DNA from: a virus
IMG/VR virus record: IMGVR_UViG_3300029309_000041
Coordinates: 1-23,624 of that record
Length of the DNA: 23,624 nt
Direction: 5' to 3' (one strand)
The notes beneath the pieces are model-generated. The model saw only the letters and a program-made list of their open reading frames with translations. It made no database searches and had not been told where the DNA came from. Positions 5,122-7,656 of the stretch are shown here, in pieces. The first letter of the stretch is position 1; every line of letters begins with the position of its first letter. The position numbers were made by a program, and so were the translations under genes.

Positions 5122-6126
5122 TTACTGCGGAGGTAATCTGAGATTATCGTATCTTGCTCCGTCTCTTTCCTCTTTAGATTCACCTAATAGTTTTAATCTT
5201 TGTAAACCCTCTTGATATTTTATGTCATATGTTTGTATATCTGAGGGAGGTAGTTTCATAAAAATAGCAGCTTCAACTAAACACCCGTATAGTAAAACAT
5301 TAGAAGCATTCGTAGAAAGCCACGTACTTCCCGTTCCGCCTGCATCTACTAATGAAGAAGGTCTGTAAAAATAATGTAATTCAAAAGTTAAATCTGTTTG
5401 CGGGGTAGGAGCTAGTATAAAAGTGTTGTCGTCGAAAATTGCATAAAATAAAGGTAGATCAGTTTCGGCTCCTTCAAGGGTATTAGCTTGTCCTCCCATT
5501 CCTGAATGATTAGTGCAGTAGTAGTGTAAGGTAGGGGCTCCTCTAGCCACAACTATCTGTGTATATGCTCCCGCACTCCCTGGAGTTCCAACGGTTGTTA
5601 CTCCTGTAGTGTACTCTGTACCACCTGCCCATGTTCCGTTACCTGTTGTAGAGAAACGTAACGGATGATTCAAGTTAGTGCTATCTGACTGGTCAAACCT
5701 ATACGTTTGTCCCTCTATCAAATTTAATGTAGGGCTATTTTCTCCGTCTATGTAGTATTTATTACCAGAGCCGTATGTATTTTCTCCGCTAGCGACAGTA
5801 ACTGTAAAGTTTGTGTAAGTTTCTGCAGGAGTATAGTCTCTTATCCAAGATGTGTGTTTTAACAATAGATAGCTATAATTTTTACTAGAATCGATAACAG
5901 CTAAACTGAAGGGGGATAGGAAATCTGTTGGTGTAGCTAAATATGTATTCCCAGAGGAAGCCGTTCCTGTTACGTTTTTTCTAAATACAGAAAGCTCTAC
6001 TGATTTTAATATTTTTTCTTCAGCCTGCTGTATAAAAGTCGGGATAGTATTCGTGAAGGTAGTTTCGGTATTATCCATATAGTTTTGAATAGCCGAAGTA
6101 AGTTCATTGTAGGTAAATCCTGCCAT
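5122..6126 (-). CDS. Connector or tail protein with an inserted cupredoxin-like domain
   Basis: A 334-residue protein in three parts. Residues 1-100 (FTYNELTSAIQNYMDNTETTF...EEKILKSVELSVFRKN) and 217-334 (LFYAIFDDNTFILAPTP...LLYGCLVEAAIFMK...YQEGLQRLKLLGESKEER) read as the two halves of one phage connector or tail protein that I recall in marine phages without the middle part. Residues 107-216 are a separate beta domain with His154, Cys204, His207 and Met210 in the spacing of a type 1 copper site (NHPL then CTNHSGM). The start has no Shine-Dalgarno sequence, and only one base separates it from the preceding stop. The structural role is likely; copper binding is inference. Confidence 0.85.
   Translation of the reverse strand: MAGFTYNELTSAIQNYMDNTETTFTNTIPTFIQQAEEKILKSVELSVFRKNVTGTASSGNTYLATPTDFLSPFSLAVIDSSKNYSYLLLKHTSWIRDYTPAETYTNFTVTVASGENTYGSGNKYYIDGENSPTLNLIEGQTYRFDQSDSTNLNHPLRFSTTGNGTWAGGTEYTTGVTTVGTPGSAGAYTQIVVARGAPTLHYYCTNHSGMGGQANTLEGAETDLPLFYAIFDDNTFILAPTPQTDLTFELHYFYRPSSLVDAGGTGSTWLSTNASNVLLYGCLVEAAIFMKLPPSDIQTYDIKYQEGLQRLKLLGESKEERDGARYDNLRLPPQ
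5479..5808 (-). other. Cupredoxin-like domain, copy 1 (inserted mid-protein)
   Basis: Residues 107-216 of the connector or tail protein. The order is strand FTVTV, YYIDG, TLNLIEGQTYRFDQSD, then the first ligand in NHPLRFS, a Gly/Thr-rich loop, and the closing strand HYYC followed by TNHSGMGG. Type 1 copper sites of plastocyanin and azurin use one early histidine and then Cys, His and Met in a short C-terminal loop. All four are present here (His154, Cys204, His207, Met210). By hand it matches copy 2 at 71 of 92 aligned residues. Confidence 0.75.
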
Positions 6127-6127
6127 T

Positions 6128-6982
6128 TTAGGTGTTTATCTGTCCTCCCATTCCAGAATGATTAGCACAATAATAATAAAGTGTAGGCGCACCAGAGGCT
6201 ACTGTAATCTGGGTGTATGCTCCAGAACTTCCAGGTGTTCCATTTGTTGTTACTCCAGTTGTGTATGCTGATCCTCCGCCGTGCGTTCCGTCTGATGTAG
6301 TAGATATTCTCAACGGATGGTTGCTGTTGCTGCTATCAGATTGATCAAACCTGTATGTTTGCCCCTCTGTTAAATTTAATGTTGCTGCTCTAGATCCATC
6401 GATATAAAAATAATTTGATCCAGAATAACTAGCCACTGTGACTGTGTAGCTAGTAAGAGAAGAAGCTCCCGTCACGGTTAAAGAACCTACACTTCCTGTG
6501 CCAGCTAATCCTGTTGGTGTTGCTATGTCGTCTGATACAGAAGTCGTAAGCGAATCGACACTACCCGTGCTTGCAACCCCTGATAACTCTGATGTAGCGT
6601 CAGGAGACACTGGTTCATTTACGCTAATGTCTAAAGTTCCTAAAGCGGTTTGCCCTATGCTTCCAGAAAACGCACTACCAATATTTGGATCGTCTCTGAA
6701 CCTCATCATATTTGTGCCTTTTGTAGCTATTACTGTGTCAGATGGATTACGGGTAGTGACTCGACCTAATTGCGCTTGGGGTAGCGGGACATCAGGTCGA
6801 GCTTGCCATAAAGCCTCGGCATCGTTCGGAGGATGTACTGGGTCTAATTGTGGGTGTTTTGGTTCGTAGCACTCAGGACACACTCTCGTGTGATCCCATT
6901 CTGTACGCATATCTAAGTATCTATAACGGAACCCACATCTATCACATATCGAATATGCATATTTGCCTGCTGCGTATGCCAT
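6128..6982 (-). CDS. Virion protein: zinc-ribbon start, TGVxGT repeats, C-terminal cupredoxin-like domain
   Basis: A 284-residue modular protein. Residues 13-38 hold two CxxC pairs (ICDRCGF and VCPECYE), a zinc-ribbon layout, followed by EPKHPQLDP, a signature I recall from small structural proteins of marine phages. Residues 110-172 carry two or three worn copies of the TGVxGTGSVGSLTV repeat that dominates another virion gene in this window. Residues 179-284 are a cupredoxin-like domain with His222, Cys272, His275 and Met278, and the protein ends six residues after the Met. It overlaps the upstream connector gene by one base; a GAGGAG lies 13 bases ahead of the ATG, a little far. It is probably a virion component; metal binding is inference. 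Confidence 0.85.
   Translation of the reverse strand: MAYAAGKYAYSICDRCGFRYRYLDMRTEWDHTRVCPECYEPKHPQLDPVHPPNDAEALWQARPDVPLPQAQLGRVTTRNPSDTVIATKGTNMMRFRDDPNIGSAFSGSIGQTALGTLDISVNEPVSPDATSELSGVASTGSVDSLTTSVSDDIATPTGLAGTGSVGSLTVTGASSLTSYTVTVASYSGSNYFYIDGSRAATLNLTEGQTYRFDQSDSSNSNHPLRISTTSDGTHGGGSAYTTGVTTNGTPGSSGAYTQITVASGAPTLYYYCANHSGMGGQINT
6131..6448 (-). other. Cupredoxin-like domain, copy 2 (C-terminal)
   Basis: The second copy of the domain, at the very end of its protein. The ligand set is complete: NHPLRIS then YYYCANHSGMGG. It lies about 320 bases from copy 1, across the gene boundary, and the two DNA segments still align over most of their length, which points to duplication within this lineage. 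Many of the differences are in surface-type positions, while the four presumed ligands and the EGQTYRFDQSDS strand are unchanged, which suggests selection on both copies. Confidence 0.75.
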
Positions 6983-7656
6983 TAAATTCTTCCACTCCTC
7001 GAAGGTACTAAATGAACTGAAGATCTATCCTCATCGTATTTAATAGCGTTTTCTAAATTTTGTTCGTATAAGGGCTGTATAACTGATAGTTTTTGTGTAT
7101 TCTTTTTTAAACATAGATAGTAAGCTAAACCTGATACTAAACAAGGCATAAACCTACTAGGAATATCTAAATCATTTATTGAAGCCGTAGCATCTTGGAT
7201 TCTTTGCCAAGAATAGTAAATGAGTTTATCGGTAGAATTCTCTGGTGTGGGATAAAGGTGTATAACAGGAGTTATTAGTCTTTCAAACCAAAACTGTGTT
7301 GGTCGTCCTGTTGTAGTTTTGACTGGTATATTTATATATTCATTACGATCTATTCTACTTAAAGAAAAATCTGTAGTAGTTCCGTTAACAGAACGTTCAA
7401 TATATGCGTCTAATATATCTATATCAAACTGATTAAGAGTGTATGTTTCATCACCTTGTGTGAGAGTTTGCTCAACTTTGGTGACTTCCCACATCTGTAT
7501 ACCTCTATTAGACCAATCAGCGAATAGAAGATTTAGAGAGCGTCTTGCAGTAACAGCATCATATGACGTGCGGGCTTCTAAACCCGCAAGTTCATATGCG
7601 TCCTCTATTGCGGTCGCTACATCTAAATTAAATGTACGAGTGCCTGATGTTGCCAT
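6982..7656 (-). CDS. Head-tail connector, P22 gp4-like
   Basis: A 224-residue, mainly helical protein. The first 60 residues (VATAIEDAYELAGLEARTSYDAVTARRSLNLLFADWSNRGIQMWEV) match the layout of phage head-to-tail adaptors of the P22 gp4 type, which bind below the portal ring and close the filled head. The rest includes a strand-rich middle (YTLNQFDIDILDAYI, PVIHLYPTPE, LIYYSWQRI) and a closing helix (CLVSGLAYYLCLKK...YEQNLENAIKYDEDRSS). Its place just after the capsid genes fits this role. No clear ribosome-binding site is visible. The call rests on pattern and order, not on a search. Confidence 0.75.
   Translation of the reverse strand: MATSGTRTFNLDVATAIEDAYELAGLEARTSYDAVTARRSLNLLFADWSNRGIQMWEVTKVEQTLTQGDETYTLNQFDIDILDAYIERSVNGTTTDFSLSRIDRNEYINIPVKTTTGRPTQFWFERLITPVIHLYPTPENSTDKLIYYSWQRIQDATASINDLDIPSRFMPCLVSGLAYYLCLKKNTQKLSVIQPLYEQNLENAIKYDEDRSSVHLVPSRSGRI

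Follow-up and report, generated by a model that had tools for sequence, protein, structure and literature searches.

Cupredoxin-like domains with intact predicted copper sites on neck-region proteins of a probably marine phage

The adaptor of phage SU10 is a dodecamer that lies between the portal and the nozzle and carries a fibre-dock domain with radially protruding loops (PMC9509320). For phage tail fibres, such as T4 gp37 and that of R22Y, HxH iron-binding motifs have been proposed (PMC11705849), and virion proteomics of T4-like cyanophages exists (PMC3037559). Searching open-licence papers for cupredoxin or blue copper in phages, cyanophages, pelagiphages or virions, we found no description of the domain considered here; a cupredoxin domain with an intact predicted copper site on phage structural proteins is thus undescribed in that literature, yet it is common. 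Our analysis was based on a window of 23,624 nucleotides within a 58.2-kb virus record, the phage being probably of marine origin, and centred on two neighbouring genes, P0001 and P0002. We hold with moderate confidence that the domains in question belong to a mobile, surface-exposed type 1 copper domain that decorates the neck or tail and serves as a metal-stabilised adhesive module.

The minus strand of the window, on which all features given below lie, encodes a terminase, a portal, a major head protein, two SU10-type adaptor-like genes, P0001, P0002 and an S74 tail spike. The last of these (124-2787) is a tail-spike-like protein of 887 residues with long 'NTTGxxNTAVGxxAL' repeats and an S74 intramolecular chaperone domain at its end. 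P0001 (5122-6126; 334 residues) is a head-tail adaptor of SU10 type that is split by an inserted domain. P0002 (6128-6982; 284 residues) is a neck-region protein with an N-terminus of phrog_28581 and a C-terminal domain, and its orthologues often stand directly upstream of adaptor genes. Upstream of P0002 lies a second adaptor-like gene without the domain (6982-7656; Pfam SU10_adaptor, E 9.1e-14). The first-pass annotation had called both P0001 and P0002 virion genes. For P0001 this is supported by its assignment as an adaptor, while the place of P0002 between two adaptor genes suggests that it, too, is associated with the virion.

As that annotation had proposed, the two adjacent genes each carry one domain of about 110 residues with a full type 1 ligand set, placed here by ligand alignment and codon mapping. 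Domain 1 spans P0001 residues 104-216 (5479-5817), with the predicted copper ligands His154 (codon at 5665-5667), Cys204 (5515-5517) and His207 (5506-5508) and the predicted axial ligand Met210 (5497-5499). Domain 2 spans P0002 residues 173-284 (6131-6466), the corresponding residues being His222 (6317-6319), Cys272 (6167-6169), His275 (6158-6160) and the axial Met278 (6149-6151). These are the sole copies within the 58.2-kb record. The two do differ, as had been noted, but the quarter of positions first given was too low: about 31% differ (identity 82/118, or 69%), and the DNA is 72% identical over 242 nt. A recent duplication as their source was ruled out: the domain tree places the two copies in separate clades, and synonymous sites are saturated between them. 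They are old paralogues, each of which has been kept intact.

Structure prediction followed by comparison with the PDB supported the cupredoxin fold for both domains, the PDB matches listed all being copper proteins of that fold. Domain 1 was folded alone, because the insert came out in the wrong place when full-length P0001 was aligned, in two attempts, with adaptors that lack it. Its model, folded with 103 relatives, has a mean pLDDT of 96.8 and a pTM of 0.89. The best PDB match is the N-terminal domain (residues 24-133) of the Hyphomicrobium denitrificans nitrite reductase 2dv6 (Z 9.8, rmsd 2.5, 99 residues), and rusticyanin (Z 8.2), two-domain laccases (Z about 8) and CueO are also among the matches listed. 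The top Z covers the whole domain and lies above the range of 7-8 given by the tool for models that have no clear match. The P0002 model reaches a pLDDT of 73 overall; it is confident in domain 2, where cupredoxin matches extend over residues 172-284 and the list of PDB matches is like that of domain 1, while the beta-rich middle of the protein, between an N-terminal ribbon and the domain, is modelled with low confidence. In the predicted models, the Greek-key beta-sandwich of the cupredoxin superfamily extends over the whole domain, and His, Cys, His and Met stand in the usual order and loops of a type 1 site.

The link to cupredoxins from sequence alone is faint. Plain PDB sequence searches with P0001 and P0002 returned no cupredoxin among the matches. 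The window copies match no Pfam copper family above its gathering score, including Copper-bind (PF00127), which gave a weak match in only 2 of 29 relatives (best E 2.3e-4). Nor do they match the amicyanin and plastocyanin models TIGR02657 and TIGR02656, for which one or two relatives gave E values of 0.01-0.02, below the curated cut-off. A diverse profile produced marginal matches to plastocyanin, pseudoazurin and nitrite reductase. The gap is bridged by a family member from Prochlorococcus phage P-HM1, which aligns to plastocyanin 1b3i at an E value of 2.7e-4 and has its loop Cys and His in register. A deep sequence profile was set aside as evidence for the fold, as antibody VH domains ranked level with plastocyanins and the two share 'YYC'; the diverse profile and the P-HM1 copy served better. 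That no Pfam copper family is matched, and that sequence profiles match antibodies as well as plastocyanins, should be counted against a copper-bearing surface domain.

The conservation of its ligands speaks for a metal site. The claim that nothing has worn away in either copy holds well beyond the window, as the complete type 1 set, with the spacing C-x2-H-x2-M, is found almost without exception among relatives. This loop spacing is that of amicyanin. The four residues are complete in 53 of 53 distinct viral sequences, a set found with patterns free of all ligands, and in all 84 distinct copies from cellular genomes, for which one of the two search patterns included the loop. In named phages, 22 of 23 full-length copies have the set; the sole exception, from S-CAM22, has all four residues replaced (KGTL). 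Seven more partial matches in named phages show no complete set. Among 46 non-redundant copies less than 60% identical, degenerate ones included, each ligand is kept in 45, the exception having lost all four together. In this sample, the four ligand columns, with G40 and F45 (numbering of the 120-residue domain 1 construct), are the most conserved well-populated columns, at an entropy of 0.15 bit vs a median of 2.04, and the ligand set thus reflects more than chance. Similarly, in an alignment of 29 diverse phage copies, from which copies without the C-terminal loop were left out, the only invariant columns of the domain are F40, H50, Y98, C100, H103 and M106.

The codons of the His and Cys ligands change freely among synonyms while the residues stay unchanged, and the dN/dS of the domains relative to near relatives is 0.02-0.06 (considering only comparisons in which synonymous sites are not saturated). 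P0002 offers an internal control. Its N-terminus carries a Cys4 zinc-ribbon-like segment (Cys13, 16, 35 and 38; 6863-6952), recognised from the sequence and a weak Zn_ribbon_20 match. Among 66 P0002 orthologues, the copper set is intact in 66 and the ribbon in only 25; the segment is often degenerate (e.g., ISDRSGFRYR...VGKDEFE) while the surrounding sequence is kept. Together, the near-invariant ligands, the synonymous switching, the low dN/dS and this control provide strong evidence that selection acts on the metal site and not merely on the fold.

These data also weigh on two readings in which copper plays no part. Small rigid beta domains are common as phage decorations, and the cupredoxin-like sandwich could be such a rigid decoration only, its four residues being kept for packing; some copies in large cyanophage proteins indeed lack a complete site. 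However, the columns of His, Cys, His and Met rank among the best conserved, whereas most positions of the core are variable; the set disappears whole when it is lost, and the lone Cys is retained in both window domains. We consider the fold without metal unlikely, although it deserves to be kept in mind. It should be noted that in large cyanophage baseplate and structural proteins (L172, from S-CAM22, and L165-L174), extra repeats whose metal site is incomplete or has been lost occur beside complete copies of the domain. These proteins form a natural comparison of metal and non-metal versions.

As apo-cupredoxins can bind other soft metals, the site might alternatively hold another metal, such as zinc, or the one conserved free Cys of each domain might act in a redox or thiol switch during genome release. 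This we regard as highly improbable, given that copper sites, rather than zinc sites, typically have Met as the fourth ligand and a C-x2-H-x2-M loop. In addition, no electron-transfer partner is encoded nearby, which speaks against a switch and makes a role in electron transfer unlikely as well.

The position of domain 1 is defined by the adaptor that surrounds it. P0001 matches Pfam SU10_adaptor (PF24175) with an E value of 1.1e-22 and 81.8 bits, as compared to a cut-off of 27, in two stretches that follow in order around the insert, and the profile of its insert-less relatives matches SU10 gp11 (PDB 7z47; E 1.8e-11). The insert of P0001 sits in the linker between '...SWIRDYTP' and '...LFYAIFDD', and in the alignment with 7z47 this point falls near residue 110 of gp11. 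Adaptors that are about 90% identical to P0001 in the flanks but lack the insert exist among close relatives, and considering all 151 distinct related adaptor reading frames of the fetched loci, the insert is present in 7 and absent in 144. In phages of the window's type, a P0002-type gene that bears the domain is usually followed by an adaptor gene that does not; close relatives of the window phage also include shortened forms of P0002, about 126-136 residues long, from which the domain is missing. The adaptor inserts group in a single clade (support 0.92) whose sister is the second of two tandem domains found in some P0002-type proteins, while the adaptors that carry them sit in four separate places of the adaptor tree. 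These trees suggest that the insert version either was passed from adaptor to adaptor, always at one fixed site, or has undergone many losses. A different adaptor insert, of about 65-70 residues and rich in 'ETITGGTSGATTTV' repeats, was found at a second site, after '...YRPxSLT' (L080, L104, L125 and L316; about 25 loci). The SU10-type adaptor seems to tolerate several decoration domains.

Beyond the window, the domain was found in 55 of 50,697 phage records, the carriers being Synechococcus, Prochlorococcus, Pelagibacter and Methylophilales phages (S-TIM5, HTVC028P, Melnitz and P-HM1 among the cultured ones) along with marine uncultured viruses, and its proteins are annotated as tail fibre, baseplate wedge, virion structural or hypothetical. 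In addition, 68 predicted viral structures match the domain at E <= 0.001, and IMG/VR holds at least 580 matching stretches. The domain model is also matched by small 'beta-sandwich proteins' (A0A481Z6J5, A0A481Z7Q7 and A0A481YVH3) from giant viruses that resemble pithoviruses and marseilleviruses. Of cellular genomes, 80 contigs of marine bacteria and archaea carry the domain; in some of these, a neighbouring adaptor marks a phage fragment, but many others are cellular. In cells the domain occurs in lipoproteins (Gammaproteobacteria, SAR86 and Marine Group II archaea), in short secreted proteins of Cellvibrionales that have one to three copies, and in large proteins of surface type that contain cadherin, collagen or RTX repeats. 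As far as lipoboxes and signal peptides can be judged by eye, the domain in cells is an exported, surface-type module, and this fits an exposed position on the virion. Plasmids searched with one lipoprotein leader gave no match. Several SAR86 and Cellvibrionales contigs (L215, L234, L238, L241 and L243) encode small lipoprotein-like or secreted proteins with little beyond one to three copies; these are candidate uncharacterised blue copper proteins and would be easier to test than the phage copies.

The shared fold and ligands, and the fact that cyanophages do carry petE (PMC3037559), might point to a photosynthetic plastocyanin captured for host metabolism. Nonetheless, one domain is fused to an adaptor and the other to a neck-region protein, no signal peptide is seen in their sequence, and the domain also occurs in phages of non-photosynthetic hosts. 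We give this origin next to no chance, and identity with the petE plastocyanin was rejected, as the window copies fall below the plastocyanin and other Pfam and NCBIfam cut-offs.

These contexts, namely tail fibre, baseplate and structural proteins, lipoproteins, and cadherin, collagen or RTX proteins, are all of surface type and count for a copper-bearing surface knob. The outward fibre-dock domain of SU10-type adaptors may be counted for it as well (PMC9509320). From the fibre-dock geometry and the insertion near gp11 residue 110, we infer that the insert sticks out laterally from the collar. The domain would thus stand out from the neck as a surface knob, with up to 12 copies on the P0001 adaptor ring and further copies at the end of P0002. 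Against such a knob, it should be considered that the cytoplasm, in which the structural proteins of phages fold, offers little free copper, and we know of no copper loading route for them. Copper would therefore have to be acquired after lysis, once the particle has left the reducing, copper-poor cytoplasm, from debris or seawater. The bound metal would then lock the ligand loops and stabilise the surface module, which might act like the Ig-like decorations of other phages, such that the particle sticks to cell-surface structures. The domain occurs both in unrelated parts of virions and in proteins of the cell surface, and the simplest role consistent with this spread would be a metal-stabilised surface decoration that aids adhesion.

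A more specific use of the metal, by which the copper-loaded domain helps the phage to find an outer-membrane metal-uptake receptor, in a copper version of the 'Ferrojan horse', is in our opinion quite improbable. All carriers among named phages are marine, the domain is present in tail fibres, and the HxH iron proposal for such fibres is a precedent (PMC11705849). That proposal is, however, itself unproven, no receptor is known, and the window domains are on neck-region proteins and not at the fibre tip.

With the copper-bearing surface decoration as the preferred reading, marine phages may well carry tail knobs that bind copper. It is distinctly unlikely that they widely display true type 1 copper sites that are loaded from seawater or host debris and whose metal is used in host adsorption; if this were true, it would be the copper counterpart of the proposed iron 'Ferrojan horse', and phages would join the colloidal copper pool of the ocean. 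In any case, the domain offers a concrete example, open to experiment, of a metal chemistry other than that of iron on marine phage particles. It also identifies what is hidden behind labels such as 'tail fiber' and 'virion structural protein', and is common to unrelated virion parts and to surface lipoproteins of marine microbes.

Compared with known systems, the phage domains share with type 1 cupredoxins (plastocyanin, amicyanin, pseudoazurin, rusticyanin and 2dv6) the predicted whole-domain fold and the full set of His, Cys, His and Met, but they are parts of structural proteins, have no signal peptide, are 12-22% identical, score below the Pfam and NCBIfam cut-offs and have a predicted metal site. 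P0001 resembles the SU10-type adaptor (PF24175, 7z47) in its flanks, whose matches before and after the insert are collinear, and differs from it in the inserted cupredoxin-like domain; the dodecameric ring between portal and nozzle, known from SU10 (PMC9509320), is putative in the window phage. The iron fibres (PMC11705849) are similar in having metal-site residues in tail-region proteins in a marine setting, although fold, metal and ligands differ, and inspection of the sequences revealed no HxH motif in either window domain. Like the Ig-like decoration domains of phages, the domain is a mobile, optional beta-sandwich on unrelated virion proteins, but it has a cupredoxin fold with a conserved predicted metal site and no Ig family membership. 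Finally, the plastocyanin gene petE of cyanophages (T4-GC 225; PMC3037559) belongs to the same superfamily and is likewise carried by marine phages. While petE is a free-standing gene for an electron carrier, the copies in the window are domains within larger, structural proteins.
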